From assembly GCF_001956855.1 (NCBI RefSeq), contig NZ_MTHD01000002.1, positions 496,001 through 560,000 on the forward strand: a stretch of DNA of 64,000 bases, in the 5' to 3' direction. This stretch comes from Azonexus hydrophilus (GTDB taxonomy: Bacteria; Pseudomonadota; Gammaproteobacteria; Burkholderiales; Rhodocyclaceae). The translations under genes and the position numbers were made by a program. The notes under the pieces were generated by a model, which was given only the letters and a program-made list of their open reading frames with translations, was not told the origin of the DNA and searched no databases. Of the stretch, positions 5,001 to 31,268 are shown one piece after another (the stretch's first letter is position 1; each line of letters starts with the position of its first letter).

Positions 5001-5239
5001 AGTCGCAGAATGCTGCCGGCCCGAACACGATGGCGGGGCGGCGCTACCTGGAAAGCCCCGATAACGGCTGGCGTTTCCAGCTTTTTGTCCGGACGACGAA
5101 AGGGACACCCTATCGCGCTTGTGGCCCGGTCATGCTGGAGCGTGCGGAAGGGCAGAAACCGATGAATATTCAGTGGCGTCTGTCGGTGCCATTGCCGGGA
5201 AGCTTGTTCCGGGAATTCAGTATTCTGCGCGGGGAGTAA
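2099..5239 (+). CDS. PLD-nuclease / superfamily 2 helicase / DUF3427 fusion protein
   Basis: A 1046-residue multidomain protein. Residues about 130-280 form a phospholipase D-like nuclease domain with RLHAKAWLF (HxK near residue 222) and GSANLSG near 241. A superfamily 2 helicase core follows: Walker A ATGTGKTVVAAF near 351, a DEAD-box variant VVDECHRL near 444, motif III-like LGLTATPERSDG near 468 and motif VI QQQIGRGLRLAKG near 650. The C-terminal 250 residues fit DUF3427. Proteins of this architecture occur in genomic islands and are suspected of acting on foreign DNA or in restriction-like defence; that role is inference. The gene follows hipA after 37 bases with a dyad in between, so co-transcription is likely. 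No frameshift or truncation is seen. Confidence 0.88.
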   Translation: MTLPLGLYDQLLTETLWQTLSRTADADSRLLDSLTAQDAPACLTDALAHQLKKILEDMQGEGKEKLLGQLDLVNSLLVSLRQRLEPETAVAAVDMLATPPQVLRAIYRQSVPPEMPATGLALPWLFTAGKGSPSLLTELRRELAACDQVDILVSFITHSGVRKLLDILQSVTAQGADGLPRTRLRVLTTTYTGATEILALDELARLPGCEIRVSLDGRRTRLHAKAWLFRRRTGFGAAYVGSANLSGAALMGGLEWTVKFTERGQSDLFERARAHFETLWEDSEFQRYDPANPAHRQALGEALKRESGEDIVARPTYFDLEPKAYQQEMLDQLYVEREHDRWRNLVVAATGTGKTVVAAFDYRRICQQEGGRPRLLFVAHREEILKQALRTYREVLRDHAFGELLLGGAIPQSFDHLFATIDSIAARDLLARCGAEHWYVVVVDECHRLAADRFDAFVTTVRPRILLGLTATPERSDGKPILGYFSNRPDGSPAVELRLWHALEQQLLAPFEYYACDDETDFSEVPWQQPGELAAVDKLVTGNDARARLVLNEWRRLAGDLTRGRALLFCVSVAHAQFMTAKLNQAGIKSLCVVGDTPLEERRRAPERLARGEVAALVTCDLYNEGVDLPLVDTLLLLRPTQSPVLFQQQIGRGLRLAKGKESCLILDFVGRHREEFRFDRLLSTITGLSRGQLVESVEKGFGTLPPGCHIQLQRQTREQVLRSLRKLVQQNWRRLRTELQAFAALRGRSNIRLATFLREQGIELDDIYRSTGRSGWANLKRDAGLLTMPVGDEDDYFGRRFSDLLHMDDPARTDMLFRIAEPTAIYQCVDAREQRLLQMLAYQVDAQQQQLGTGEAFLERLRAHPAHLAELAEIGEVLQARSVLRQRAVPGLEDVSLCLHGAYGIREILTAVGWLTPNKRAPFQAGVLALQDRKVELLFVTLDKSEGYHAQIAYHDYAISADLFHWQSQNAAGPNTMAGRRYLESPDNGWRFQLFVRTTKGTPYRACGPVMLERAEGQKPMNIQWRLSVPLPGSLFREFSILRGE

Positions 5240-13526: not shown

Positions 13527-14103
13527 GCCAGGCCATCTCCTGCTGCTGGTGGGTTTGCTCAGTGGTTGCGTCAGCGACCGTGTCGTCCTGCTGCCGTCGC
13601 CCGATGGCGCAGAGACGGCACTGGTGGTCCGCGACGCATCGGGCGAGCGGGTGCTTGACCGGCCATATGCCGCAACCAATACCCAAGCCCTGGCGGCACC
13701 CTTCGATTTTCGTGCCAATCCCGAATATGTCGAAACGCGCTATGCAGCGGTCTTGCAGGCTTTGCCGCGCGGTGCGGTCAGCCATGTGCTTTATTTCGAG
13801 ACCGGCGGCGATCGCCTGACCCAGGCGTCGTTGGCAGAGCTCTCCGCCTTGCGCCAGCAGATTGCCAACTGGCAGGCATCTGAAATCATGGTCATCGGCC
13901 ATACCGACCGTGTCGGTTCGCTGGCCGCCAACGATGCCTTGTCTGCGAAGCGGGCGGAAGCGGTGCGTGAATTGTTGATCGGCGAGGGGATTCCGGCGGA
14001 GAAGCTCGAAGTGGCCGGGCGCGGTGAGCGCGAGCCGCTGGTGCCGACCGCCGACGAGGTCGATGAGCCGCGCAACCGTCGTGTCGAGATCAACGTTCGC
14101 TGA
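13519..14103 (+). CDS. OmpA-family lipoprotein
   Basis: From ATG 13519 the product is 194 residues with a lipoprotein signal: MIKPGHLLLLVGLLSGC, where the lipobox is LLSGC and Cys 17 would be lipidated. The C-terminal 110 residues are an OmpA/MotB peptidoglycan-binding domain, including VIGHTDRVGSLAANDALSAK and AGRGEREPL, with the Asp and Arg that bind diaminopimelate. It overlaps the FecR gene by eight bases, so the two are probably made together. Its last 14 bases overlap the 3' end of the convergent CHASE2 phosphatase gene. A role in presenting cell-wall or envelope state to the CHASE2 sensor is inference. Confidence 0.85.
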   Translation: MIKPGHLLLLVGLLSGCVSDRVVLLPSPDGAETALVVRDASGERVLDRPYAATNTQALAAPFDFRANPEYVETRYAAVLQALPRGAVSHVLYFETGGDRLTQASLAELSALRQQIANWQASEIMVIGHTDRVGSLAANDALSAKRAEAVRELLIGEGIPAEKLEVAGRGEREPLVPTADEVDEPRNRRVEINVR

Positions 14104-16216
14104 GCTTCGGTCCCGGCCAGCTCAGCAGCAGTAGCGTCAGGTCGTCGGCGGGTGCTTCGCCGGCTTCGAAACGGCGGACTTCATCGCGGATCTGCCGGCA
14201 CAGGGTGTCTACCGGTGCCAGCGGCAAATCGGCCAGGCAGGCGATCAGCCGCTCGCTGCCGAACAGCTGTTCGCCGTGGCAGGCTTCGCTGACGCCGTCA
14301 GTAAACAGGCACAGCAGGTCACCCGCCTGCAACTGGGTCCGGCCGCTCGGGTAGGGGTAATCACCGAGCGCACACAGCGGCGGGCCGGCGATATCGGCGG
14401 TTTCGATGCGCATGACTGTGCCCTGGCGTTTGATCAAGGGGGCATCGTGGCCGGCACAGACGTAGTCGAGCGTGCCTCGGTCGACATCGAGAATGGCGAT
14501 AAAAGCGGTGACGAACAGGAAGCCTGGATTTTCCCGGCTGAGTTCGCGTTCGATGTCGCAGACCGCAGCGGCCAGATCGTCATGGCGGCGGGTCAGCGTG
14601 CCGCTGAGGGTTTTCGCGATGGCCATGAACAGGCTGGCCGGCAGGCCCTTGCCCGAGACGTCGCCGATGGCGATGCACAGGTGGCTGGCGTCGAGCATGA
14701 AACAATCGTAATAATCGCCGCCGACAGCGCGGGCCGGTTCGAGGATGGCGGCGATGGCGAAACGCGTCTCGCCGGCAAAGATTTTCCCGGGATCTGGTAG
14801 CAGGCCCATCTGGATGCGTCGGGCGGCGTCGAGTTCGCCAGCGACCCGCGCAGCGTCTTCACGGCTGGCCTGCAACTGTTGTTCGGCTAAGCGCCGGCGA
14901 CCGTCGGCAACGATCAGCGTATTGCCGAGCAGCGACATGAAAACCGGACTGAGCAGCAGCGTCAGCGATGGCCCGTCGAACAGCCAGCGGCCGGTGACGA
15001 AGGCGAGGTAGCCGGTACCGACCAGCACTGCGCCGACACCGGCAAAGGTGAACACGGCATAACGCGGGCGTAGCGCCGGCACGGCACTGATCAGCAGCAA
15101 TCCACCGGCGAGCAGCGCCGTCATTTCCAGCAGCGGCATCCAGTGCGGACGCCGCAATGCCGTCTGTTCGAGCAGGCTTTCGATGACCTGGGCGTGGATG
15201 TCGGCGCCGGGCAGGCTGTCGCCGAGCGGGCTGATGACCCGGTCCTGCAGCCCGATGCCGTTGAAGCCGACGATGACGAACCGTGAGGCGAATATTTCCG
15301 GCGGATGCACGCCGGCCAGGACATCGGCGGCTGACAGGTAGTAGTTCGCGCTGGCCTTGCCGAAATGCAGCAGCAACTCCCCGTTTTTCTGCGTTGGCAG
15401 GCGGTAGTCGCCGATGCGGATCGCCTGCATGCCGGACGCGCCGCCTTCGACAACAACCTGGCCGCCACCCAGGGCCAGGCGGAACATTTCCAGCGGTAGC
15501 GACAGATAGGGCTGGTCTTGGATATGGGCCAGCGTCGGTACCCGGCGCAGGATGCCACGCTCGCTGTGCGAGATCAGGCCGTCCGGGCTGGCATTGATGA
15601 AGCCTTCGCCGGCGGCGGCGAGCTGCAGCTCCGGACGGCTGGACAAGGCGCTGGCAAAACGGGGCAGGGCGGTGTCTGCATCCGGGTCGATGTGCAGTGT
15701 GGGCAGCGGGTGAATCGGGTTACGGGCGCCGGGCAGCTCGCGGCTCAGTCCGACCACTGCGAGCGCCGTGGGGGCCTGGGCGATGACATTGGCCAGCGCA
15801 CGATCCGGGTCCGGCAACTTGTGCAGAAGCTCGGCGGAAGCGGCGGGCAGGCGGCGGGCGATCAGGTCCGGCGCGTGCTGGTCGCGCTCGGCAAAGACGA
15901 AGTCGAGGCCGACCGCCAGCGGCCCGCCGGCCTGTATGCGCGCCAGCAGTTCGCCGACGCGGTCGCGCGGCCACGGCCATTGGCCCAGCGCGACGAGGCT
16001 CTGGCTGTCGATGCCGACGATGATCACCGGCTCGTTCGCGCGCGTTCGCGGCAGCAAGCGCTGATAGCGGTCGAACTGGCTCGACTGCATGCTGTGCAGC
16101 GGCGTCGCTTCGATGTTGTGCAGGAGGACTGCCGCGAGTATCAGCAGCAGGCCGGGAAGCAGCCGCCCCTGCCCGGCGCGCAGCAGGGCGACGGCCAGGG
16201 CAAGCGACTTGCTCAC
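14090..16216 (-). CDS. CHASE2-sensor SpoIIE-type serine/threonine phosphatase
   Basis: A 708-residue membrane protein. An N-terminal transmembrane helix (about 14-33) is followed by a periplasmic CHASE2 domain (about 40-330; PVIIVGIDSQSLVALGQWPW and PPEIFASRFVIVGFNGIG), three transmembrane helices (about 345-430) and a cytoplasmic PP2C/SpoIIE phosphatase domain (about 470-700) with AVGGDYYDCFMLD, IAIGDVSGKGLPASLFMA and LFTDGVSEACHG, which carry the metal-binding Asp residues. Such phosphatases dephosphorylate STAS proteins in response to envelope signals. It starts four bases inside the MBL gene (ATGA) and is third in the STAS-MBL-phosphatase operon. The ligand sensed by CHASE2 is unknown. 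Confidence 0.9.
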   Translation of the reverse strand: MSKSLALAVALLRAGQGRLLPGLLLILAAVLLHNIEATPLHSMQSSQFDRYQRLLPRTRANEPVIIVGIDSQSLVALGQWPWPRDRVGELLARIQAGGPLAVGLDFVFAERDQHAPDLIARRLPAASAELLHKLPDPDRALANVIAQAPTALAVVGLSRELPGARNPIHPLPTLHIDPDADTALPRFASALSSRPELQLAAAGEGFINASPDGLISHSERGILRRVPTLAHIQDQPYLSLPLEMFRLALGGGQVVVEGGASGMQAIRIGDYRLPTQKNGELLLHFGKASANYYLSAADVLAGVHPPEIFASRFVIVGFNGIGLQDRVISPLGDSLPGADIHAQVIESLLEQTALRRPHWMPLLEMTALLAGGLLLISAVPALRPRYAVFTFAGVGAVLVGTGYLAFVTGRWLFDGPSLTLLLSPVFMSLLGNTLIVADGRRRLAEQQLQASREDAARVAGELDAARRIQMGLLPDPGKIFAGETRFAIAAILEPARAVGGDYYDCFMLDASHLCIAIGDVSGKGLPASLFMAIAKTLSGTLTRRHDDLAAAVCDIERELSRENPGFLFVTAFIAILDVDRGTLDYVCAGHDAPLIKRQGTVMRIETADIAGPPLCALGDYPYPSGRTQLQAGDLLCLFTDGVSEACHGEQLFGSERLIACLADLPLAPVDTLCRQIRDEVRRFEAGEAPADDLTLLLLSWPGPKLSER

Positions 16217-17175
16217 AGGTCGAGGGTCAGTCCGTCGTAGGCGGAAACGACATCCAGTGGCAGGTTTTCACCGCGCGTGATCTGTTCGAAACGGCGGGTT
16301 TCGGTGGCCAGGCGGCTCAACTGCTTGTCGTCGTGGATCGGTTCGTGGTGGAACAGCGCCAGACGCTTGACGGCCGCAGCCTGGCACAGTTCGACGCCGA
16401 CTACGTTGCTCGAATGTCCCCAGTCGGATTTGACCGATGCGGCTTCGGCCAGCGAGTACATGGCATCGAAAATGACGAGGTCGGCCTTGGCAAAGAATTC
16501 GACGAAGCCGTTGAAGGATTCGATGTCGTCGAGCTTGTGTTCGGAATCGGTGCTGTACACCACCGACTTGTCGAGGCTGTCGAAACGGTAGCCGTAGGAA
16601 TCGCCGGCGTGCAGCTGCAGTTTGGGCGTGACGTTGAGGCCGCAGATGAAATGCGGCTTGCCCGGGGTCATCAGGTCGAATTCGATCTTCGCGCCGGCCT
16701 GCGAGTAATCGACCGGGAAGCAGGGCGCCCGCATCTGCAGGCGGAAGGCTTCCTCGATGCGTTCATGGCAGCCGTGGACGATGATGCGGTTGCCCGGGAT
16801 GTACATCGGCGCAAAGAACGGGAAACCCATCAGGTGATCCCAGTGCAGATGCGAAATGAAGATGTGGTAGGTCTGCGGATTGGGCACGCCGTAACGGGCG
16901 ATCTTGGCCTGGCCGAGCGGACGGGCGCCGCTGCCCATGTCGCAGATGATGTGTTCGCGTTCGTCGGTCAGGATTTCGACACACGACGAATTGCCGCCAA
17001 AAGTGCCGTTGACCGCAAAAGGCAGCGAATCGACGAATTCGTCGAGGGCGGCGCGGTTGCGGAAATTGCGACCATTGGCCGAAACCAGTGCCGAGGCGAT
17101 CTTGTCACGGATGTCGCGGCTGGTCAGTGCTGTCGGCAGCGAGCCGCGGGTTCCCCAGAAGATGACCTGTTTCAT
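16213..17175 (-). CDS. Metallo-beta-lactamase-fold hydrolase (PhnP/phosphodiesterase-like)
   Basis: A 320-residue MBL-fold protein. The metal motif HLHWDH sits at residues 109-114, and further ligands are suggested by YSTDSEH, FDAMYS and SDWGHSS. The opening VIFWGTRGSLP followed by a GNSSCVEI segment resembles RNase Z/PhnP-like phosphodiesterases, some of which act on cyclic nucleotides. It overlaps both the STAS gene upstream and the CHASE2 phosphatase gene downstream by four bases, so the three proteins are made in fixed proportion. A second-messenger hydrolase in the partner switch is a plausible but untested idea. Confidence 0.8.
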   Translation of the reverse strand: MKQVIFWGTRGSLPTALTSRDIRDKIASALVSANGRNFRNRAALDEFVDSLPFAVNGTFGGNSSCVEILTDEREHIICDMGSGARPLGQAKIARYGVPNPQTYHIFISHLHWDHLMGFPFFAPMYIPGNRIIVHGCHERIEEAFRLQMRAPCFPVDYSQAGAKIEFDLMTPGKPHFICGLNVTPKLQLHAGDSYGYRFDSLDKSVVYSTDSEHKLDDIESFNGFVEFFAKADLVIFDAMYSLAEAASVKSDWGHSSNVVGVELCQAAAVKRLALFHHEPIHDDKQLSRLATETRRFEQITRGENLPLDVVSAYDGLTLDL

Positions 17176-17522
17176 TGGCCGAGCACCTTGCAGGCCGCTT
17201 CGATGCTGGTGTAGCAGGGAACGATCAGGTTGAAGCGGCTGATCGTGAATACTTCCTGCACCAGCGGCGTCAGTGCGGCAATGGCAAAACCGCCCTGCTG
17301 GGCCTTGGCCTGGCGTGAGGCCATCATCAGCACGCGCAGGCCGGCACTGCTGATGTAAGTGACCTGGGAGAAGTCGAGCAGCACGGGCGCCTGGCCCTGG
17401 ACGCAGCGGGCGAGCAGGGGATCGAGCGCCTGAGTGAACTCTTCGGCAATGGCGTGGTCTATCCGGCCGCTGACGGAAACAACCAGAACGCCAGCCTGTT
17501 CGCGGGTTGGGAGATTCATCAT
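17172..17522 (-). CDS. STAS-domain anti-sigma factor antagonist
   Basis: A 116-residue single STAS domain. The phosphoacceptor region reads DFSQVTYISSAGLRVLMMA, with Ser 58 or Ser 59 as the likely kinase target. Antagonists of this SpoIIAA/RsbV type bind an RsbW kinase when unphosphorylated and so free its client. It is the first gene of the operon STAS-MBL-CHASE2/SpoIIE, and the last protein contains the matching phosphatase. The matching kinase is probably the one encoded at 12634-13044. What is released at the end of the switch is not encoded here in recognisable form. Confidence 0.88.
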   Translation of the reverse strand: MMNLPTREQAGVLVVSVSGRIDHAIAEEFTQALDPLLARCVQGQAPVLLDFSQVTYISSAGLRVLMMASRQAKAQQGGFAIAALTPLVQEVFTISRFNLIVPCYTSIEAACKVLGQ

Positions 17523-21972: not shown

Positions 21973-22818
21973 GTGCTAATCCTTGGTGCGGTCAGCTATT
22001 TCCTGTTGATCGCCGCCATTGTCCTGATGGTTGCTTTTCCCGCATGGCGTTATCGTCTGGCGTCGATATGCCGCCTGACCTTGAACAACGGTGCGAAACC
22101 TGTCACTCGATTTGCCCACGGTTTTTTCACGAATCTCCGGCGCATTCATCTTGGCTCGACCTCAGCCATTCATCGCCTGCGGATACTGGTCATCTCTCAT
22201 TCAGCACTGTCGCTAGCGGCAATCCTGATGCTCGTCCTGCCGTCGATGTTTGCCTGGGTGCTGGGTAGTCCTGTGGTGTTCGATTTTTCTGAAAACGGAA
22301 GTGGCGGGGATCGTCAGATTGCCGTGTTGCTGGAAGGGGAACAGCTGGTTCCCCCGCCATCCCTGCCGCCAGAGGCGTTCGCCACGCGTGAGGTGGAATT
22401 GGTGCGCCCCGACGCCATTCATGCCAGCCGGAACTGGGATTTGCTGGATGCCGAATTCACGCAGCGTCTTCTCGTTGTATTCAAACTGATGAAAGAACGA
22501 CATGGATATGACATGGTTCTCATCGAGGGCTATCGCAGCCCTGAGCGGCAGGAAGCCTTGCTGGCACAGGGAAGTCATGTCACCCGGGCCGGGGCCAACA
22601 TGAGTTACCACCAGTACGGGCTGGCTGCCGACTCGGCCTTCCTCAGGAACGGGCAGGTCATCATCTCCGAGCGGGATTCCTGGGCCATGAGAGGTTACGA
22701 GTTGTACGGGGAAACTGCCGAACTGGTCGGGCTGACCTGGGGGGGGCGTTGGCAGATGCGTGACTACGGTCATGTCGAGATGCGTCGCAAAGGCGTTCTT
22801 GGGCAATCAGGACGTTGA
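21973..22818 (+). CDS. Membrane-anchored M15-family peptidoglycan peptidase (TagX-like)
   Basis: A 281-residue protein starting at GTG 21973, with GAGGG upstream. Two transmembrane segments lie in the N-terminal 100 residues (about 2-23 and 75-96), and the periplasmic part is an M15 D-Ala/L-Ala-type zinc peptidase: IEGYRSPERQEALLAQGS, the metal motif SYHQYGLAADSAF, and DYGHVEM with the third ligand. The first gene of a T6SS locus, it resembles in position and fold TagX of Acinetobacter, an L,D-endopeptidase needed to open the cell wall for T6SS assembly. That equivalence is inference; the alternative is an effector, but the membrane anchor argues against it. Confidence 0.82.
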   Translation: MLILGAVSYFLLIAAIVLMVAFPAWRYRLASICRLTLNNGAKPVTRFAHGFFTNLRRIHLGSTSAIHRLRILVISHSALSLAAILMLVLPSMFAWVLGSPVVFDFSENGSGGDRQIAVLLEGEQLVPPPSLPPEAFATREVELVRPDAIHASRNWDLLDAEFTQRLLVVFKLMKERHGYDMVLIEGYRSPERQEALLAQGSHVTRAGANMSYHQYGLAADSAFLRNGQVIISERDSWAMRGYELYGETAELVGLTWGGRWQMRDYGHVEMRRKGVLGQSGR

Positions 22819-22858
22819 GATTCATGTCTCTTCCACAGAAACAACATTGGAGAAATCA

Positions 22859-23125
22859 ATGACCAGGCCATTCATCCTGCTGGGAGACAAGACCGATCAC
22901 GGTGGTGTCGTGATCTCGGCATCCGGCTCAAGCGATTGCAACGGCAAGGGAATCGCCAGGATCGGCGACAAGGTTACCTGCCCGCGAAAGGGGCATGGCA
23001 GTGTCACGATCATCGTTACCGGGGATCCGACGGCAATCATCGATGGTCAGCCGGCTGCCCGGCATGGTGACAGAACTGCCTGTGGCGCAATTCTCCTGGC
23101 CAGCCAGTCGCTGACCACCGATTGA
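22859..23125 (+). CDS. PAAR-domain T6SS spike-tip protein
   Basis: An 88-residue protein that is almost entirely a PAAR domain: FILLGDKTDHGGVVISASG, ARIGDKVTCPRKGHG, DGQPAARHGDRTACGA. The His and Cys residues fit the zinc site at the tip of the cone. PAAR proteins cap VgrG and carry effectors. No C-terminal toxin domain is fused to it, so any cargo is separate. The ATG at 22859 gives a standard N-terminus; a longer frame upstream overlaps the M15 gene and is unlikely. Confidence 0.93.
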   Translation: MTRPFILLGDKTDHGGVVISASGSSDCNGKGIARIGDKVTCPRKGHGSVTIIVTGDPTAIIDGQPAARHGDRTACGAILLASQSLTTD

Positions 23126-23142
23126 AAGGGGCAGGTCGAGGC

Positions 23143-24558
23143 ATGCGGGCGATGGCATACAGGGTGCTGAGCGGGCTTGGTCTGACACTGCTCATCTGGA
23201 TACTGGTCCTCGCATGGTGGCAATCCAACGACCATCAGCCGAGCAGTGCGGATCTCCTGCTCTACCTTGTAGCTGTGCCAGGCGCATTGATCGCCGGCTA
23301 CTGGTTGCTGCGGGGCGTTATTGAACAGCTGAAAGCGCCTCCGCTCGCTCTTTCTCCAGCACCGCTTGTGCCGGATGACGACCCATTGTCTGGTGCGCGG
23401 GCGATCAGTACGGCAACCGAGCGCGGATTTTCATTATTTCTGGTTGATGCCTGGGTACATGTGGCGGCAGGAAATTCAGCCGATGACATCGTGGCTGCCG
23501 TCGAAGCGGGTTCGCGTCCCGGGCCCAGTGAGGAAATCATGGACGATGCAGGGTTCCCCGTTTTTGCTGCCGAGGTGAAGGATATCGATGTTGACGGCAT
23601 GAACGAGCAACTGCTGCGCGACGGCAAGGATATCCATCCTGCCCTGGCGATACCCGCGATACTTCGCTCGATCGTCTTGCTGGATGGTGTCATGGCAGCG
23701 GCGATGGACCGTGCCAAAGAGATCATGGAGTCCGCTGGGGAAAAGATATCCCTGCAAGTGTTCTGGTTGCTGCCGGGCGATTGGGATCCGGCGCATCGCG
23801 ATGCCTTGCGGGGCTGGTTCGAAAAAACCTGCGGGGCAGGGCATTTCGCCAGCACGCATGACGTGCACCTGATTTCCGTCGCGAGCGAAGCAGATGCGAT
23901 GAAGCAGCTTGATGAACTGATATTGCGTGCGAATCGAAGTTTGCCTGACAAGACGCTGATGCTGATCGCCGGAGCAGTATCAGCCGTGGATGAACAAGTG
24001 GTCGCACGATGGTCTTCCCGTCAGGGATTGTTCTCGGCAGGGCATCAGCAGGGGCAGATTCCCGGGGAAGGGGCTGTTGCCCTGCTGCTGGCTGAGCGCA
24101 ATGCGGTCGAGTTTCTGCGATTGGAGGATGTCGCAGAGGTGAGCCGGGTGATGCTTGGTGCGAGAGACAAACGGCTGGATGCCGGAGGCCGGATCAGCGG
24201 CAGACTTGTCGAGCAACTGCTTGCCGGCCTGCTTGACTCAAGCGGTCTGGAAGGCGAGTCCATCAAGGCTGTCGTTCTTGATACCGACCACCGCGTCGGG
24301 CATGTGGCAGAGGCCATGGAGGGGGTGTTGGGAAGCTTGCCCCATCTCGATCCAGTCAGTGATTTTCTGGCGACTGGTTCAGCCTGTGGCGCCCTCGATC
24401 CCATTGGCAGCCTGGTAGCACTTGCCTGTGCGAGGACAAAAGTACTTGCAGGCCAGAGCCCCGTGATCTGTTTAAGCAATCAGCATGCCCTGGAAAGGGC
24501 GATGCTGATTGTCAGCCCTTTTGTTGCCTCTGACAAAACCGAACCCCGTATTTCTTGA
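23143..24558 (+). CDS. T6SS-locus membrane protein with degenerate ketoacyl-synthase (thiolase-like) fold
   Basis: A 471-residue protein from ATG 23143 (a TTG at 23122 is possible). Two transmembrane segments lie in the first 60 residues (VLSGLGLTLLIWILVLAWW, LLLYLVAVPGALIAGYWLL). The remainder lines up by eye with the FabF encoded at 58998-60242: KTLMLIAGAVSAVD for [22 protein letters not shown] for [12 protein letters not shown], and ATGSACGALDPIGSLVALA for [19 protein letters not shown]. The catalytic Cys and both active-site His appear to be missing, so it is probably a pseudoenzyme. It lies between PAAR and tssM, in the same direction. The function is unknown; a structural role next to TssM is a guess. 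Confidence 0.65.
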   Translation: MRAMAYRVLSGLGLTLLIWILVLAWWQSNDHQPSSADLLLYLVAVPGALIAGYWLLRGVIEQLKAPPLALSPAPLVPDDDPLSGARAISTATERGFSLFLVDAWVHVAAGNSADDIVAAVEAGSRPGPSEEIMDDAGFPVFAAEVKDIDVDGMNEQLLRDGKDIHPALAIPAILRSIVLLDGVMAAAMDRAKEIMESAGEKISLQVFWLLPGDWDPAHRDALRGWFEKTCGAGHFASTHDVHLISVASEADAMKQLDELILRANRSLPDKTLMLIAGAVSAVDEQVVARWSSRQGLFSAGHQQGQIPGEGAVALLLAERNAVEFLRLEDVAEVSRVMLGARDKRLDAGGRISGRLVEQLLAGLLDSSGLEGESIKAVVLDTDHRVGHVAEAMEGVLGSLPHLDPVSDFLATGSACGALDPIGSLVALACARTKVLAGQSPVICLSNQHALERAMLIVSPFVASDKTEPRIS

Positions 24559-24574
24559 TCGAAGCCCAAATCCG

Positions 24575-27500
24575 ATGTCCCGAATCCGCTCATTGATTAC
24601 CGACTCACGCTTTCTTTCCTTCATTGGCATCGCAGCCATCACGGCATTTCTTTTCCTTGGAGCAAGGACGCTCAAAGTAGCAATGATCTGGGCCCTCATG
24701 GCCAGCGTAATGATCCTTCTGGTCTGGGCCGGGATGTGGCTTGTTCGCCGGCATCGCGCCAGAAAGGCTGGTGAAGCCATCGGCTCGATGCTCGAGAAGC
24801 AGGGTGAGGTCTTGCAGAAGCGCAGCGGTGCCAGTTCGGGTGCGGAAATCGAGACATTGAAGAAGCGCATGCACGATGCGATCAAGACGATCAAGACATC
24901 CAAGCTCGGACAGATATCCGGGTCGGAGGCGCTGTACGAATTGCCCTGGTACATCACAATTGGCAATCCGGCAGCCGGGAAAAGCACTGCCATCGTCAAT
25001 TCCGGACTGAAGTTTCCTTTTGACGACGGTGGCAATGCAATCATCAAGGGCATCGGTGGTACCCGGAACTGCGACTGGTTCTTTACCACCGAGGGTATCC
25101 TGCTTGATACCGCAGGTCGGTATTCGGTTCACGAAGAAGATCGGGAGGAATGGCTGGGGTTTCTCGAATTGCTCAGGAAAAACCGACCGCACGCACCGAT
25201 CAACGGGATACTGGTAACTGTCAGCATTGGTGAACTCATGGGAAGTTCACCAGGTTTCGCCATTACGCTGGCGAAGAATCTGCGCCAGCGTGTGCAGGAA
25301 CTGACTGAAAGACTGGAGGTTTTTGCTCCAGTCTATGTCTTGTTCACCAAGGTGGACCTGATTCCCGGTTTTCATGATTTCTTTCTTGATCTCGACTGGA
25401 CCGAGCGCGACCGGGTCTGGGGCGCAACCATTCCTTATGAGCAGGCGACCGGCAACGAATTGATTGCCTTGTTCGGGCGTCATTTCGACGAGCTGTATGA
25501 AGGGCTGCGTGCGATGAGCGTAGCCCAGCTATCGAGAATTCAGGGAGAGGGAGCCTTGCCCGGGTTGCTTATCTTTCCTGCCGAGTTCGCCGCCATCAAG
25601 CCGGCGCTCCAGTCGTTCATCGCCACCTTGTTTGAAGACAATCCTTTTCAGTTCAAGCCGGTTTTCCGTGGTTTCTACATTACTTCAGCGATTCAAAGCG
25701 CAGATATCAAGCCTCTTTCCAGCGACCGGGTCCTGAAAAAATTCTCCTTGCAGGGTGGCGGTGCTGTACCCGTACGCACCGCGCTGAATCATGGCTATTT
25801 TCTCAAGGAATTGTTTTCAAAGGTCATATTTCCGGACAAGACACTGGTTCGTCGGCACACCACAAGAATGAAGGCGAGATACCGCCAGTTGGCTGTCCTT
25901 GGGGCCTTGTGTTTGCTTGGGCTGACGCTGGGAGGTTGGAGCTGGTCATATATCAACAACCGGGCTCTGCTGGATAACGTCCAGCAGGACGTGGTCAAGG
26001 CTGTTCGATTGCAGGAAGGAAGAATCGATCTGCAATCCCGGCTCGAAGCCCTTGAAATCATTCAGGACCGTCTGGGGCAACTCGAACGTTTCAACGATGA
26101 GCATCCTCTCTCGATCGGTTTGGGGTTGTATCAGGGCGAAGCAATGGCCAGGAAGTTGCGTACCGAATATTTTTCCGGAATCAGCAACATCATGCTTGCC
26201 CCGGTGAAGGAAAATCTCGAGGCCTTCCTTATCGAGGTCAATGCGCAGGATAAATTGAAGGCGAAGGCAGACAAAGCCTCTGTGAAACTCTCGGCAGGCA
26301 GTCCGTACAAGGATGCCAGGCCATCCGATACGGAGGATGGCTATAACGCCCTGAAAACCTATCTGATGCTGTCATCGCGCGAGCACCTGGATACCGGGCA
26401 TTTGTCGGACCAGATAACACGATTCTGGCGTGGTTGGCTCGAGGCCAATCGTGGATCGATGAGTCGTGAGCAGATGATCCGATCAGCCGGTAGCATTCTT
26501 TCATTTCATCTGGAGTTGGCGAATGATCCGGAATGGCCTTTGATCGATACCAACCTGGTATTGGTCGACGAGGTACGCGACAAATTACGCCATGTGGTTC
26601 GGGGAATGCCAGCCGCCGAGCGCGTATATGCCGAGATCAAGGCTCGGGCATCCACCCGCTTTGTTCCGATGACTGTTGCCAGCATTGTCGGTCCAGACAA
26701 TGCTGGCCTGATCGTTGGCAGCTCGACGGTCTCTGGTGCATTTACCGTCGAAGCCTGGCGGGAATATGTGCAGGATGCAATAAAGGATGCGGCAACCAAT
26801 GAACAGAAGAATGTTGACTGGGTTCTGCTGACTTCCGGAACGGATGACCTTACGCTCGAGGGTAGTCCCGAACAGATTCAGAAATCCTTGATTGCAATGT
26901 ACAAGCGCGATTATGCGGCTGAGTGGAAGCGCTTTGTGCAGGGCATCAGCGTTTCATCATTCGCATCATTCGCCGACGCAGTATCGGCAATGAATCGTCT
27001 CGGTGATCCCCAGACATCGCCGATCGGTACGCTGGTCAAGGTGATGTTTGACCAGACGGCCTGGGACAACCCGGCGATGGCCAATGCTGGATTGATGCGT
27101 GCCCAGACAGGATTCATCGAGTGGTTCAAACGCTCCGTGCTGCAAATGTCACCCGCCAGAGTCCAGGTTGACGTCAATGTGTCCGCCAAGGCCGCCGAGG
27201 TACCCATGGGGCCGATCGGCAAGGAGTTTGCCGGTTTGGGCCGACTGGTAATCTCGCGCGACAAGGGGGATTCTCCGGTCGACACCTATCTGAAGCTGCT
27301 TTCCAGGATTCGTACCAAACTGAATCAGCTGCAAAATCAAGGCGATCCGGGAACCGGGGCCCTCAAGCTGATGCAGCAGACGGTAGAAGGTGGGGATTCG
27401 GCACTGGCCGAGACCTTGCGGTTTGTCGATGAGCAGATGTTGACCGGGATGCCGGATGAGCAGCGGGCTGTCTTGCGTCCTCTTCTGCTGCATCCATTAC

Positions 27501-28402
27501 TGGAAACGTATGCTTCGGTAATCAAGCCGGCAGCCGTTGAGTTGAACAAAACCTGGATTGCTCAGGTGTTTGAGCCTTTCAATCGCAAGCTGGCTGTCAA
27601 ATATCCGTTTTCACCGAAGGCTGGCATTGAGGCTTCACCGGCTGAAATTGCCACGATATTTGGTCCGGAAGGTGCAATTGCAAAGTATGTCGAATTGTCC
27701 ATGGGGGGATTGGTCGTCAGACGTGGCAATACGATCACACCGCGTACGTGGGGGGATCTCGGATTGACGCTGCAGGCAGATTTCACGGCGGGATTTGCAC
27801 GGTGGGTGGCCCCCCTCGAAGGTGGTGCCGCTTCCGATGCTGCGGGCGGCGGAGGGGCAGGGCAGGCGCAAACCGTTTTCATGCTCCGTCCACAGCCGGC
27901 TCCTGGAACTACCGGTTACGTGATCGAGATCGACGGACAGAAATTGAACTATCGCAACGGTGTTTCTCAATGGGCCAACTTCATTTGGCCGAATGCTGCA
28001 GGAACACCCGGTGCGCGCATTGTTGCCACGACATTCGAGGGTGAAATCATCGAAGTCATCAATATTCCCGGGCGTTTCGGGCTGGAAAAAATGATCAACT
28101 CGGCCTCCAGAAGCCGGCAAGATGATGGAACATTCCGCTTGTCCTGGTCCAGCAAGGGCGTGGAGGTTGCTCTTGATCTTCGTCTGCTCAGCAGTGCACA
28201 GGCTCAGGTTGCATCTGGATCCGAGCATCCGGGGAGTGGTGGCTTTGGCAGTCTCGTGCTGCCGGACCGTGTAGCACTTGCTACCGCCATGGAAAATGCG
28301 CAGATACCGCAATCTACCCCCTCTGATGTCAATGTTGCAGCGCTTCCGGAGGGTTCACGTGAACTATCTGTCCAGGCTGGGGTGGCAGGAGGTAAGTCAT
28401 GA
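24575..28402 (+). CDS. tssM: T6SS membrane complex subunit TssM (IcmF)
   Basis: A 1275-residue protein with the TssM plan. Two transmembrane helices lie in the first 60 residues (FLSFIGIAAITAFLFLGA and WALMASVMILLVWAGMWL), a cytoplasmic NTPase-like domain has Walker A ITIGNPAAGKSTAIVNSG near residue 130, and a third helix near 440 (LGALCLLGLTLGGWSW) leads to a large periplasmic domain. TssM with TssJ and TssL forms the envelope channel of the type VI secretion system. ATG 24575 is chosen because it gives a normal N-terminus. The stop overlaps tagF (ATGA). tssJ and tssL are not in the window. Confidence 0.95.
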   Translation: MSRIRSLITDSRFLSFIGIAAITAFLFLGARTLKVAMIWALMASVMILLVWAGMWLVRRHRARKAGEAIGSMLEKQGEVLQKRSGASSGAEIETLKKRMHDAIKTIKTSKLGQISGSEALYELPWYITIGNPAAGKSTAIVNSGLKFPFDDGGNAIIKGIGGTRNCDWFFTTEGILLDTAGRYSVHEEDREEWLGFLELLRKNRPHAPINGILVTVSIGELMGSSPGFAITLAKNLRQRVQELTERLEVFAPVYVLFTKVDLIPGFHDFFLDLDWTERDRVWGATIPYEQATGNELIALFGRHFDELYEGLRAMSVAQLSRIQGEGALPGLLIFPAEFAAIKPALQSFIATLFEDNPFQFKPVFRGFYITSAIQSADIKPLSSDRVLKKFSLQGGGAVPVRTALNHGYFLKELFSKVIFPDKTLVRRHTTRMKARYRQLAVLGALCLLGLTLGGWSWSYINNRALLDNVQQDVVKAVRLQEGRIDLQSRLEALEIIQDRLGQLERFNDEHPLSIGLGLYQGEAMARKLRTEYFSGISNIMLAPVKENLEAFLIEVNAQDKLKAKADKASVKLSAGSPYKDARPSDTEDGYNALKTYLMLSSREHLDTGHLSDQITRFWRGWLEANRGSMSREQMIRSAGSILSFHLELANDPEWPLIDTNLVLVDEVRDKLRHVVRGMPAAERVYAEIKARASTRFVPMTVASIVGPDNAGLIVGSSTVSGAFTVEAWREYVQDAIKDAATNEQKNVDWVLLTSGTDDLTLEGSPEQIQKSLIAMYKRDYAAEWKRFVQGISVSSFASFADAVSAMNRLGDPQTSPIGTLVKVMFDQTAWDNPAMANAGLMRAQTGFIEWFKRSVLQMSPARVQVDVNVSAKAAEVPMGPIGKEFAGLGRLVISRDKGDSPVDTYLKLLSRIRTKLNQLQNQGDPGTGALKLMQQTVEGGDSALAETLRFVDEQMLTGMPDEQRAVLRPLLLHPLLETYASVIKPAAVELNKTWIAQVFEPFNRKLAVKYPFSPKAGIEASPAEIATIFGPEGAIAKYVELSMGGLVVRRGNTITPRTWGDLGLTLQADFTAGFARWVAPLEGGAASDAAGGGGAGQAQTVFMLRPQPAPGTTGYVIEIDGQKLNYRNGVSQWANFIWPNAAGTPGARIVATTFEGEIIEVINIPGRFGLEKMINSASRSRQDDGTFRLSWSSKGVEVALDLRLLSSAQAQVASGSEHPGSGGFGSLVLPDRVALATAMENAQIPQSTPSDVNVAALPEGSRELSVQAGVAGGKS

Positions 28403-29382
28403 GTGGCAGGGGTTCCTCCACCGCCACCTGTTTCGGCAAGATCCCCTCAAGGGGAGATTTCGTCAAGGGAGCAGGGCAGCATCGCCTGATCAATGTACTC
28501 GATCAATGGGTTTCCCTAGCAATGGAGCATCTTTCCGAAAATCCGCGGTGGAAAATTGCCTATGACAGTGCGTGTGCCGTTGATTTTGCTTTCGTCGGCG
28601 CCCGTAGCAGGTTATCGGTAGTGGGACATCTGAGACCCAGTAGCGATTCGTCTGGCCGTCGTTTCCCTTTTATTGCCGCAGCTACGGTAGAGCGTGATGA
28701 CTCGCTGATGTTTCGCTGCGCACCGGCAGGTATGGGGTATTCGTTTGGTTCCTTGGCAAGGATATGTGAATCGGGCGTCAAAGGAGCCGATGTCTCGCAG
28801 CTTCTGTCTGAACTGGACACCGTCGATTGCGCCAATGATTTTGAAATGGCCATACAAGCTGATCCCCTTGGCAACTTTGTCAGGCGCACAACGCTCGGTT
28901 CCCTGGCTGGAATGCTTGGGTTTTCAAGTTGCGCCTCCCTGCGGCGAAGCATCCTTGCGATCGGGTTGTTGATGCGACCGGTGCTGGGACAAGGGGAACT
29001 TGCCATCAGCAGGGATGTTTATCTGCCATTACCCGCTGACGAACGTAACCGCAATCTGGTAGCCGCATTCTGGATTTATCTCGTCACGGCGTTTTTTCGT
29101 AAAACAGCAGTTGAGGCCCAGTTCATCATGGAACGCCGCACTCAGTCGCCAAAGCTGCTTATCGGTTTCAACGGCAGTTCATCAACAACGCTGTTAACAG
29201 CACTTGCACCGGACAGCGTGGCTGAACGGGTCATCTCGCTGGTTGATCCCGAGTGGATAGACGATCAGCCAGAGGTGACTGGCGAATATGGAATTGCAAA
29301 GCTTTCGGCATATCTTGAGCAGCCCGGGATCACCCTGGAACAGGGAATAAAGACATTCAGGGAAATATTTCTAGGGGAGTAA
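28399..29382 (+). CDS. tagF: T6SS-associated protein TagF
   Basis: A 327-residue TagF/ImpM protein. The N-terminus TCFGKIPSRGDFVKGAG is the family signature, and AVDFAFVGARSRLSVVGHLRPSSDSSGRRFPF belongs to the same conserved domain (about residues 10-170). TagF acts as a post-translational repressor of T6SS assembly in Pseudomonas; threonine phosphorylation can bypass it. Here it overlaps tssM by four bases. The C-terminal 150 residues are less conserved and are not a phosphatase, unlike TagF-PppA fusions. Confidence 0.9.
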   Translation: MSGRGSSTATCFGKIPSRGDFVKGAGQHRLINVLDQWVSLAMEHLSENPRWKIAYDSACAVDFAFVGARSRLSVVGHLRPSSDSSGRRFPFIAAATVERDDSLMFRCAPAGMGYSFGSLARICESGVKGADVSQLLSELDTVDCANDFEMAIQADPLGNFVRRTTLGSLAGMLGFSSCASLRRSILAIGLLMRPVLGQGELAISRDVYLPLPADERNRNLVAAFWIYLVTAFFRKTAVEAQFIMERRTQSPKLLIGFNGSSSTTLLTALAPDSVAERVISLVDPEWIDDQPEVTGEYGIAKLSAYLEQPGITLEQGIKTFREIFLGE

Positions 29383-29384
29383 GC

Positions 29385-30161
29385 ATGATGTTTCGAGTCA
29401 TCACCACTGCAGCCTGTTTGGCGCTGAGTCCGCCAGTTTTTGCCGATACGGCGGCATCACTGCAGGCGCATTCAAAAGTGGTCGCTTCCGGTAGCGTTCC
29501 CGATGAAGCTGCGCGAGCTGCGATTCTCGGTAAATTGCGCGATCTGTACGGTGCGACAAACGTCGTCGACCGCCTTGAAGTAGGTGGAGTGGTTCCTCCA
29601 CCAAACTGGACGGAGTACATGACCAAGCTTCTTGTCGACAATCTGAAGGCTGTTCATGCCGGAGAGATGCAAGTCAACGGAACGCAAATCGCCATCAAGG
29701 GTAACGTCAGTAACGAAGCCATGCGACAGCAAGTGGTCAGCAACATGGCGATTGCGCTGAATCCGACGTATACGGTGAACAATGGGTTGGTGGTCTCAGA
29801 AGGTGCGCAAGGCGTACTTGATAAAACGCTTTCCAATCGAGTTGTCGAGTTCGAGAGTGGCTCTGCCAGGCTGACGCCAGCGGGAATTGCGATCCTTGAT
29901 GAAATGCTTCTTGCAATGAAGCAGATTGGCATGCCCAGAATTCAGATTATCGGACATACGGATAGCTCTGGAAATCGCCTGGCAAACATAGGGCTCAGCC
30001 TGGCGCGAGCCAATGCAGTCCGCGGTTATTTGATCGACAAGGGTGTGCCGGCTGATTCATTGAGTGCGGTGGGATCCGGCCCTGATCATCCGGTTGATTC
30101 AAACCAGACGGTTGAGGGCAGGGCAAAGAACCGAAGAATCGAATTTCGGCTTGCTGGATAG
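29385..30161 (+). CDS. BON- and OmpA-domain T6SS accessory protein
   Basis: A 258-residue exported protein with a signal peptide (FRVITTAACLALSPPVFADT). Two stretches have the BON pattern (ASGSVPDEAARAAILGKL near residue 35 and IKGNVSNEAMRQQVVSNM near 105), followed by a C-terminal OmpA/MotB domain with IQIIGHTDSSGNRLANIGLS and RAKNRRIEFRLAG, which would bind peptidoglycan. This order resembles mycobacterial OmpATb. In T6SS loci, peptidoglycan-binding proteins such as TagL anchor the membrane complex; a similar role is inferred. It begins two bases after the tagF stop. Confidence 0.83.
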   Translation: MMFRVITTAACLALSPPVFADTAASLQAHSKVVASGSVPDEAARAAILGKLRDLYGATNVVDRLEVGGVVPPPNWTEYMTKLLVDNLKAVHAGEMQVNGTQIAIKGNVSNEAMRQQVVSNMAIALNPTYTVNNGLVVSEGAQGVLDKTLSNRVVEFESGSARLTPAGIAILDEMLLAMKQIGMPRIQIIGHTDSSGNRLANIGLSLARANAVRGYLIDKGVPADSLSAVGSGPDHPVDSNQTVEGRAKNRRIEFRLAG

Positions 30162-30170
30162 CATCTCATA

Positions 30171-31268
30171 TCAGGAGCCGGCTCCCGCTTGATCCTGAAA
30201 TTCTCTCTCCACACCAAGCAGTTCTTCCATGCTGGATAGCGCGGTATCGTCCTTGATGACTGAACGCAGCCAGACATGAAGGGGCATGCCCCCCCAGCGA
30301 GCAGCCTTTTCAGCGAGATAGGCGACCGGACTATGGGGCTCGGTACGTTTGAAGAAGGCTGCGATTTCATTCAGTTGGCGAATGGCATGCTCCCGGGAGC
30401 GAACTGGCCCGCCAGCAGACTCTGGTCCTGGATCGCCAATGCTGGGCTCCAGTCGGCCTGTCTGAGCGGATGTATGTCCGGTATCGGCCTTGGTGTCAGG
30501 CTGAGGGTTGCCCGATTGGTTACCTGCGTAACGTCGGAAAAACCGCGAAAGATCGTCAAGGGTATCGAACGTATGTCCGAAGGCTGGTGCGTTTTCGCCC
30601 AATTGCCGCTCAAGAACCAATTGCAGCCTGCTTACTGCAGCTTTCAGCTGTTCTGCTGCATTGATGCCTTCGACGAAATGACGGGTAGGCGTATCTTTCA
30701 ATGCTGCATCGAATAGCTCCTGAGTGACACATCCAGAGCGAATTACCTCATCCGCAAGCTGTGGATTTAGTTCAAGGTTTCTTGCTGTTGTGCGTGCTGA
30801 TTCTTGATCGATGCAGGAAAAATTGCCCTTGATGGATTTGGTCAGCGCTGTTTCACGGATCAGGCGTGCGCTCTGGTTGACCAACCAGTCAAGTACGCCG
30901 ATTCTGGCTTCCTGATCATCATCATCCGATTGAGGATGAATGTCCTGCCAGAATTTTTCGCACAGTTCAGCCAGCAGGGTGTAGCCATTAGCCAAGCCGC
31001 CAAGACCATGGGTTTTGCCCATGGCTTCAGTCATCCAGGCAGCAAGACGCAAGTCTTTTGTTCTGCTGGTCAGAAGGCTGTCACAGATACGAATTACGGT
31101 GTTCCAGTCAGCGTCCTTTACAGAAGTGATCCATTCTCCTTGCGACAGAGAGGGGTCATCGAAGCGCCGTGCTTCCTGTATTTCGTCAAAGTCGGTCGAA
31201 AAAATCAAATCCTCGCCACAGTGGCCTCGTTCAGATTTTATCGGTTGAAGCAGATGTCCAAGATCCAT
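30171..31268 (-). CDS. tssA: T6SS protein TssA (ImpA N-terminal domain)
   Basis: A 365-residue protein. The N-terminal ImpA domain is clear (LGHLLQPIKSERGHCGEDL, AAWMTEAMGKTHGLGGLANG, then LLAELCEKFWQDIHPQSDDD). TssA proteins organise sheath and tube growth at the baseplate or distal end. The C-terminal part, which decides the TssA class, is short here (DLSRFFRRYAGNQSG, then HSPVAYLAEKAARWGGMPLHVWL), the last stretch matching the conserved region found in many class 1/3 proteins. It is convergent with the OmpA gene, nine bases apart, and has AAGGG upstream of its ATG. Confidence 0.9.
   Translation of the reverse strand: MDLGHLLQPIKSERGHCGEDLIFSTDFDEIQEARRFDDPSLSQGEWITSVKDADWNTVIRICDSLLTSRTKDLRLAAWMTEAMGKTHGLGGLANGYTLLAELCEKFWQDIHPQSDDDDQEARIGVLDWLVNQSARLIRETALTKSIKGNFSCIDQESARTTARNLELNPQLADEVIRSGCVTQELFDAALKDTPTRHFVEGINAAEQLKAAVSRLQLVLERQLGENAPAFGHTFDTLDDLSRFFRRYAGNQSGNPQPDTKADTGHTSAQTGRLEPSIGDPGPESAGGPVRSREHAIRQLNEIAAFFKRTEPHSPVAYLAEKAARWGGMPLHVWLRSVIKDDTALSSMEELLGVEREFQDQAGAGS

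Follow-up and report, generated by a model that had tools for sequence, protein, structure and literature searches.

The gene at positions 23143–24558 of the window (the whole 64,000-nucleotide stretch of DNA analysed here) encodes a membrane-anchored pseudo-ketosynthase that, judged from its sequence, is a TsmK/TagZ (AsaB) homologue of a Burkholderiales T6SS. The homology, the fold, the catalytic loss, the two membrane helices, the gene position and the coexistence with TssJ were all observed in the present analysis. The A. baumannii protein TsmK/AsaB (A1S_1301) has been described as a pseudo-ketoacyl synthase with a stabilising effect on the T6SS membrane complex and was called Acinetobacter-specific (PMC10564176), and asaB homologues had been named tagZ four years earlier in Ralstonia, Rubrivivax, Xanthomonas, Achromobacter and some Burkholderia (PMC6612558), so that both the family and its occurrence outside Acinetobacter were already known. 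Three things are added here, namely the coexistence of TsmK with TssJ, TvpD as the nearest relative found and the association of tsmK with one TssM subtype.

Gene and locus

The reading frame runs on the + strand from an ATG at 23143 to a stop codon ending at 24558 (471 aa), with an alternative TTG start at 23122, and 12 full-length, collinear relatives with 39–49% identity to the window protein support a real gene. PAAR, tsmK and tssM genes are consecutive and all lie on the + strand. The PAAR gene (22841–23125) encodes a short protein of 94 aa with a canonical PAAR motif (Pfam PF05488, 3.4e-25; not DUF4150) and without a toxin domain. It is preceded by the gene of a TagX-like membrane protein with an M15 peptidase domain (21973–22818, +; Pfam PF13539, 1e-11), which shares 47% identity over 192 residues with an ORF of the A. 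baumannii T6SS locus (L089:26671-27624; blastp E 1.4e-54). On the other side of tsmK, tssM (IcmF; 24575–28402, +; TIGR03348, 1.5e-194) is of the Acinetobacter/Paraburkholderia subtype and is followed by tagF (28399–29382, +; TIGR03373, 5.6e-37), by the gene of a TagN-like OmpA/BON-domain protein (29385–30161, +; Pfam PF00691, 1.6e-20), which is 44% identical to the A. baumannii gene at the equivalent place of the cluster, and by tssA on the opposite strand (30171–31268, −; TIGR03363, 2.1e-113).

The T6SS genes are split, with the tagX-paar-tsmK-tssM-tagF-ompA/tssA block (21973–31268) located about 50–60 kb from the sheath/baseplate/tssJKL block. The latter, which holds the sheath, Hcp, baseplate and ClpV genes and tssJ-tssK-tssL, was found at about 580–592 kb of the same contig (G000:C10).

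Elsewhere in the window, three consecutive genes on the − strand (14090–17522) encode a CHASE2+SpoIIE phosphatase, a metallo-beta-lactamase-fold protein and a STAS protein, a trio that looks like a partner-switching signalling set. A 1046-aa helicase is encoded at 2099–5236; its best NCBIfam match was RadD-like and below the cut-off, its N-terminal part gave weak DISARM DrmC/PLD matches, and it is possibly a defence or repair gene.

Fold and catalytic residues

Two membrane helices precede the large domain, at residues 8–26 (23164–23220, +; hydropathy 2.15; helix 2–28 in the structural model) and 38–56 (23254–23310, +; hydropathy 2.05; model helix 35–64). Exactly two hydrophobic N-terminal segments were counted by a simple hydropathy rule in 29 of the 32 proteins of the family alignment, which includes A. 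baumannii TsmK; two members had three and one had a single segment. Basic residues precede helix 1 and follow helix 2, with an acidic loop between the helices, which suggests that the domain behind them is cytoplasmic. A long periplasmic region was suggested instead for Acinetobacter Hyp2 and its homologue TagZ (PMC6838775), and this suggestion was counted against a scaffold with an inward-facing domain.

The AlphaFold2 model of the window protein, built from a 6-sequence alignment, reached a mean pLDDT of 76.3 and a pTM of 0.74, with two of the five models at a pLDDT of only 54–56. Comparison of the model with the PDB by Foldseek matched ketosynthases (best E 1.7e-11; 666 matches at E ≤ 0.001), and the model and this search delimit a ketosynthase-fold pseudoenzyme domain at about residues 97–460 (23431–24522, +). 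In NCBIfam, the sole relevant match was PRK06147 at residues 259–321 (E 3.1e-5), and the Pfam search of the window protein gave no family at E ≤ 1.

At the columns of Cys168, His306, Lys338 and His343 of the FabF encoded in the window, the catalytic residue was kept in none of the 32 family members and was intact in 10/10 ketosynthase comparators, a reading that depends on a very divergent alignment. The window protein thus lacks the Cys-His-His triad and the Lys required of an active ketosynthase. The PGEG motif (residues 307–310; 24061–24072, +) is the counterpart of the FabF GEG, with P307 and E309 invariant in 32/32 members and the GEG glycine kept in 31. Invariant positions across the whole alignment were W26, P46, G110, P139, R175, S280, P307, E309 and G416. 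One conserved catalytic His was counted in A. baumannii TsmK in the corresponding paper (PMC10564176); it was not visible in the 32-row sequence alignment.

The initial annotation, made from the sequence before any search, had read the protein as two transmembrane segments followed by a FabF-like domain without the catalytic Cys and the two His. These points held throughout: the helices and the named motifs are real, and the only refinement concerns D382-H383-R384, which lies adjacent to the catalytic His columns and is invariant in the 13 closest proteins, not across all 32. Structure prediction with a fold search had been set beforehand as a check that a different fold would speak against the annotation, and it returned the thiolase/ketosynthase fold.

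Homology to TsmK, AsaB and TagZ

A profile of 14 relatives matched a 470-aa ORF directly 5′ of A. baumannii tssM with an E-value of 1.9e-19, and the window protein alone matched the same ORF with an E-value of 2.5e-7 (blastp), both values referring to a small ORF set from three loci; the A. baumannii reference was taken from chromosomes filed as plasmids, a 16S probe for Acinetobacter having matched 0 of 370 genomes. The alignment of the family profile with A. baumannii TsmK by hhalign gave 98.8% probability (E 6e-17) over 286 columns. Length, the two helices and the gene position agree with the TsmK described in PMC10564176, where two helices and a predicted ketosynthase fold are reported. 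Two observations were counted against this assignment, namely an identity to A. baumannii TsmK of only about 16% over the full alignment, and a good match to the single A. baumannii sequence in the N-terminal half only.

According to the same paper, deletion of tsmK in A. baumannii abolishes Hcp secretion and killing, and TsmK binds TssM, TssL, TagX and TssK. Weak matches outside Acinetobacter, in whose genomes TssJ was found in 77.1%, were dismissed there as not being TsmK (PMC10564176).

Distribution, gene order and TssM subtype

The tsmK gene was present in 11 of 60 relatives (the window genome counted), and the nearest named records carrying it were Dechloromonas, Azoarcus and unclassified Betaproteobacteria assemblies. 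Matches were obtained in 17/300 genomes of the order, or 15 after removal of two short TvpD-like matches (G153, G294), and in 6/370 genomes of the class, or 4 after removal of G354 and G383 (the window genome counted); only some first-look candidates were scored per genome in these profile searches (5 in the order sample, 4 in the class sample), so that with respect to absences of tsmK the counts are lower bounds. The search of plasmids by tblastn with the window protein gave no match, and a family search with PRK06147 alone returned mostly ordinary ketosynthases (21/21 genomes), none over the cut-off.

The gene order is well conserved, with tssM directly 3′ of tsmK in 30 of the 32 family loci and M15, PAAR, tagF and OmpA genes around. 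A PAAR gene lies directly 5′ in 25/32 loci; an adjacent upstream PAAR gene on the same strand is absent in the other seven, among them L069, L072, L084, L085 and the A. baumannii locus L089.

Two loci depart from this arrangement. A full-length TsmK-like gene at L068:9403-10827 (G285:C5) has neither tssM nor any homologue of the window's T6SS set nearby, and the same genome holds a second TsmK-like gene beside tssM. At L075:7635-10287 (G091:C1), a shortened TsmK-like gene of 432 aa stands directly after tssK and away from tssM, in a genome with a full TsmK beside another tssM.

The window TssM aligns with A. baumannii TssM over 93% of its length at 43% identity and is 53% identical to Paraburkholderia TssM, with less than 28% identity to the remaining records (among the 60 of 307 matches listed). 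Within the order sample, tsmK was found in 15 of the 20 genomes with a TssM of at least 51% identity and in 0/280 others (Fisher p 2e-21, with genomes treated as independent), the identity of the 300 genomes in the two counts being inferred from shared labels and settings. The five remaining genomes of this subtype were rechecked with the 32-row profile and all candidates scored, and no TsmK was found; weak matches obtained at the same time in three genomes whose TssM is less similar proved to be TvpD-like (223–235 bits to the TvpD-like profile against 46–50). Two Paraburkholderia loci (L090, L091) also have this TssM subtype without TsmK and carry an M15 gene directly before tssM. From these five genomes and two loci it follows that TsmK is not universally needed within the subtype, and comparison with the Paraburkholderia loci could show what takes the place of TsmK or makes it dispensable.

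The initial annotation had placed the gene between PAAR and tssM in one direction, had judged it likely to belong to the secretion machinery or its control rather than to lipid synthesis, and had allowed for a known but unfamiliar T6SS family; it had proposed a search to see whether homologues always neighbour tssM and had named their spread through genomes lacking a T6SS as the observation that would speak against it. The gene order given above agrees with the first of these claims, and all 15 genomes of the order sample with tsmK hold a TssM of the same subtype. The assignment to secretion was borne out, and such a family does exist in the literature as TsmK/AsaB (PMC10564176) and TagZ (PMC6612558), with TvpD (PMC13373197) as a further member of the published record.

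Relationship to TvpD and Tla3

By profile comparison, the nearest relative found of TsmK is soluble TvpD (PRK06147/PA0098) and not FabF. TsmK and TvpD-like profiles matched with 99.1% probability (E 8.7e-19) over 333 columns, and TvpD-like proteins and ketosynthases with 96.2% (E 2.1e-9); the direct comparison of TsmK with ketosynthases gave 17.2% (E 0.0014), which is weak, yet better than reversed or unrelated control profiles (E 0.09–0.8). The comparison sets were small (five TvpD-like proteins; ten ketosynthases, nine of one kind). PRK06147 was matched by 22 of the 32 TsmK members (best E 7.5e-12), and two other ketosynthase models were matched by one member each. The A. baumannii TsmK sequence alone missed the TvpD-like profile (hhalign probability 0.9%, E 0.059), so that the link between TsmK and TvpD runs through the beta/gamma relatives. 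No published statement of this link was found in the TsmK, TagZ and PRK06147 literature that is accessible without subscription.

TvpD (PA0098) is a soluble, thiolase-like T6SS protein that is predicted to act with DUF2169 in shielding a PAAR domain (PMC13373197). Five short TvpD-like proteins matched PRK06147 with E-values of 9e-42 to 1.2e-74 (143–252 bits, below the cut-off of 342), and in the loci tested their genes had DUF2169 and PAAR-like genes as neighbours. The window protein scored 23.3 bits against the same cut-off of 342, and no DUF2169 gene was found in the window genome; the protein was therefore rejected as TvpD proper.

Tla3 (DUF2875, PDB 8yz3), the adaptor of Tle3, ranked second in the Foldseek search (E 1.8e-10; TM 0.42/0.45; 11% identity). 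It was also the top PDB sequence match of the 32-row profile, collinear over about 110 residues, with an E-value of 0.027 that is not significant alone; with the 14-row profile, Tla3 was not listed and the only match was a chance one to lactate oxidase (E 0.018). DUF2875 was absent among the 14 Pfam families listed for the 32 TsmK members.

A 492-aa, two-helix ketosynthase-like protein without a Pfam match is encoded far from tssM at L143:6731-8532 (G091:C1). It matched the family profile weakly (E 3.2e-6), a PAAR gene lies immediately downstream (PF05488, 6.8e-26), and the protein may represent an additional branch lying between TsmK and Tla3.

Coexistence of TsmK and TssJ

For Acinetobacter it was proposed that TsmK and a GS-linker of TssM replace the missing outer-membrane lipoprotein TssJ, and the co-occurrence there of TsmK, the TssM linker and the absence of TssJ, as given in PMC10564176, favours such a substitution. 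As an account of the family treated here it is very improbable. The search for TssJ covered 30 genomes, 27 with TsmK and three with TvpD-like genes only, and TssJ was found in 28 of them overall and in 25/27 of those with TsmK, the two exceptions being incomplete assemblies (89% and 86%). When TssC was counted in 25 TsmK genomes (G008 and G035 left out), all 17 with a single TssC had exactly one TssJ; some of these assemblies are fragmented or mildly contaminated (G007, 83% complete; G025, 7% contamination), and the complete assemblies G238 and G200 likewise have one TssC and one TssJ beside TsmK. In several genomes, tsmK and tssJ lie within about 10–31 kb on one contig. One or other of four linker patterns sought in TssM was present in 11 of the 32 proteins examined, A. 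baumannii included. The window genome, with a single tssC, carries a tssJ with a lipobox beside tssK and tssL, and its TssM matches none of the four patterns, so that both features of the TssJ-less Acinetobacter-type membrane complex (no TssJ, a TssM linker) are missing.

Because TsmK coexists with TssJ in 25/27 genomes and in all 17 single-sheath genomes, TsmK is not in general a substitute for TssJ, and this general role was rejected. The coexistence also implies that TsmK either predates the loss of TssJ or is unconnected with it. Compensation for a lost TssJ is contradicted outside Acinetobacter and may at most hold within that genus, as a later event. The explanation by loss of TssJ is thereby removed for the relatives studied here, which mostly have both proteins in the same, often only, T6SS, and these environmental, non-pathogenic hosts offer a setting where TsmK and TssJ could be deleted separately.

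Proposed role

We consider it probable that TsmK/TagZ is an inner-membrane pseudo-ketosynthase scaffold joining TssL/TssM to TssK and TagX. The two helices would fix the protein in the inner membrane with the dead ketosynthase-fold domain facing the cytoplasm, where this domain would act as a protein-binding scaffold, holding TssL and TssM together and tying them to the baseplate protein TssK and the cell-wall hydrolase TagX; the membrane complex could then form and be used, with no lipid being made. From A. baumannii we infer by analogy which proteins TsmK binds, how it is oriented and that tsmK is needed. The adjacency of the shortened TsmK-like gene to tssK at L075 was counted in favour of this scaffold.

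The kinship with TvpD points to another, easily tested role, docking of the spike tip, which we hold to be possible but doubtful. By analogy with soluble TvpD, the TsmK domain might grip the PAAR tip or the PAAR–VgrG spike, and the helices would bring the loaded spike to TssL/TssM, so that baseplate and membrane complex would meet only with a spike in place. TvpD/PRK06147 is the closest relative found, no other ketosynthase model is matched by more than 1/32 members, and TvpD itself is a predicted chaperone of a PAAR domain with DUF2169 (PMC13373197); the spike adaptor Tla3 stands high in both the structural and the 32-row profile searches. Gene order points the same way, through the upstream PAAR gene in 25/32 loci, the PAAR gene beside the two-helix gene of L143 and, in Burkholderia, a paar-tagZ pair kept together away from tssM in VgrG clusters, as reported in PMC6612558. 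Against docking, the seven loci without an adjacent same-strand upstream PAAR gene include A. baumannii itself, and the word PAAR is absent from the main text of the TsmK paper (PMC10564176). The window PAAR is a canonical PF05488 protein, whereas the partners of TvpD are DUF4150/PIPY domains that need DUF2169, which was not found in the window genome, and Tla3 drops out of the PDB search with the 14-row profile. A speculative extension would unite TvpD, Tla3 and TsmK/TagZ in one T6SS superfamily, inactive ketosynthases concerned with the spike tip, with TsmK as the inner-membrane receptor or checkpoint for the PAAR spike. If this were true, the machine would assemble only when loaded, and the proposed substitution for TssJ would be an Acinetobacter coincidence.

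The retained fold and GEG motif would fit a catalytically active inner-membrane enzyme, an acyltransferase or one that modifies lipids, but with the four catalytic columns empty in every member and a strict T6SS gene context in 30/32 loci such an activity is the most improbable of the readings considered, and the acyltransferase was rejected on the empty columns. Two-helix proteins beside PAAR genes can be immunity proteins. The similarly folded Tla3 serves as an adaptor for an effector (PMC6560169). On these grounds TsmK could be an adaptor dedicated to one effector, or could confer immunity to the neighbouring PAAR protein. We judge this highly unlikely, as the place and length of tsmK beside tssM are fixed across several families and the short PAAR protein of the window has no toxin domain. 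A PAAR immunity protein was rejected on the fixed gene place and length. The scaffold remains the preferred role.

Comparison with known systems

FabF and related ketosynthases share the overall fold and the GEG motif with the window TsmK, which differs from them in lacking the catalytic residues and in having two membrane helices, and the profile similarity extends only to the E-value of 0.0014 given above. TvpD, a Class II Tvp accessory protein, is like TsmK a ketosynthase-like pseudoenzyme of a T6SS; in contrast to TsmK, it is soluble, has about 350 aa and is encoded with vgrG, DUF6484, DUF2169 and a PAAR-like toxin gene. Tla3 differs from the window TsmK in being, as reported in PMC6560169, cytoplasmic and specific for one effector, and no DUF2875 match was found in the window protein.

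TagZ agrees with the window protein in being an asaB homologue whose N terminus carries membrane helices and whose gene directly follows paar; in Burkholderia, unlike the window, this gene pair is located away from the T6SS-1 cluster (both from PMC6612558). The identity of the window protein with TagZ rests on the shared A. baumannii reference. A. baumannii TsmK and the window protein have in common a length of 470–471 aa, two N-terminal helices, a dead ketosynthase fold and a gene 5′ of tssM, in systems that both include TagX, TagF, OmpA and PAAR genes. The two systems differ in that the window system has TssJ and a TssM without the four linker patterns, and in the place of the PAAR gene, which lies directly upstream of tsmK in the window and downstream of the OmpA gene in A. 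baumannii.
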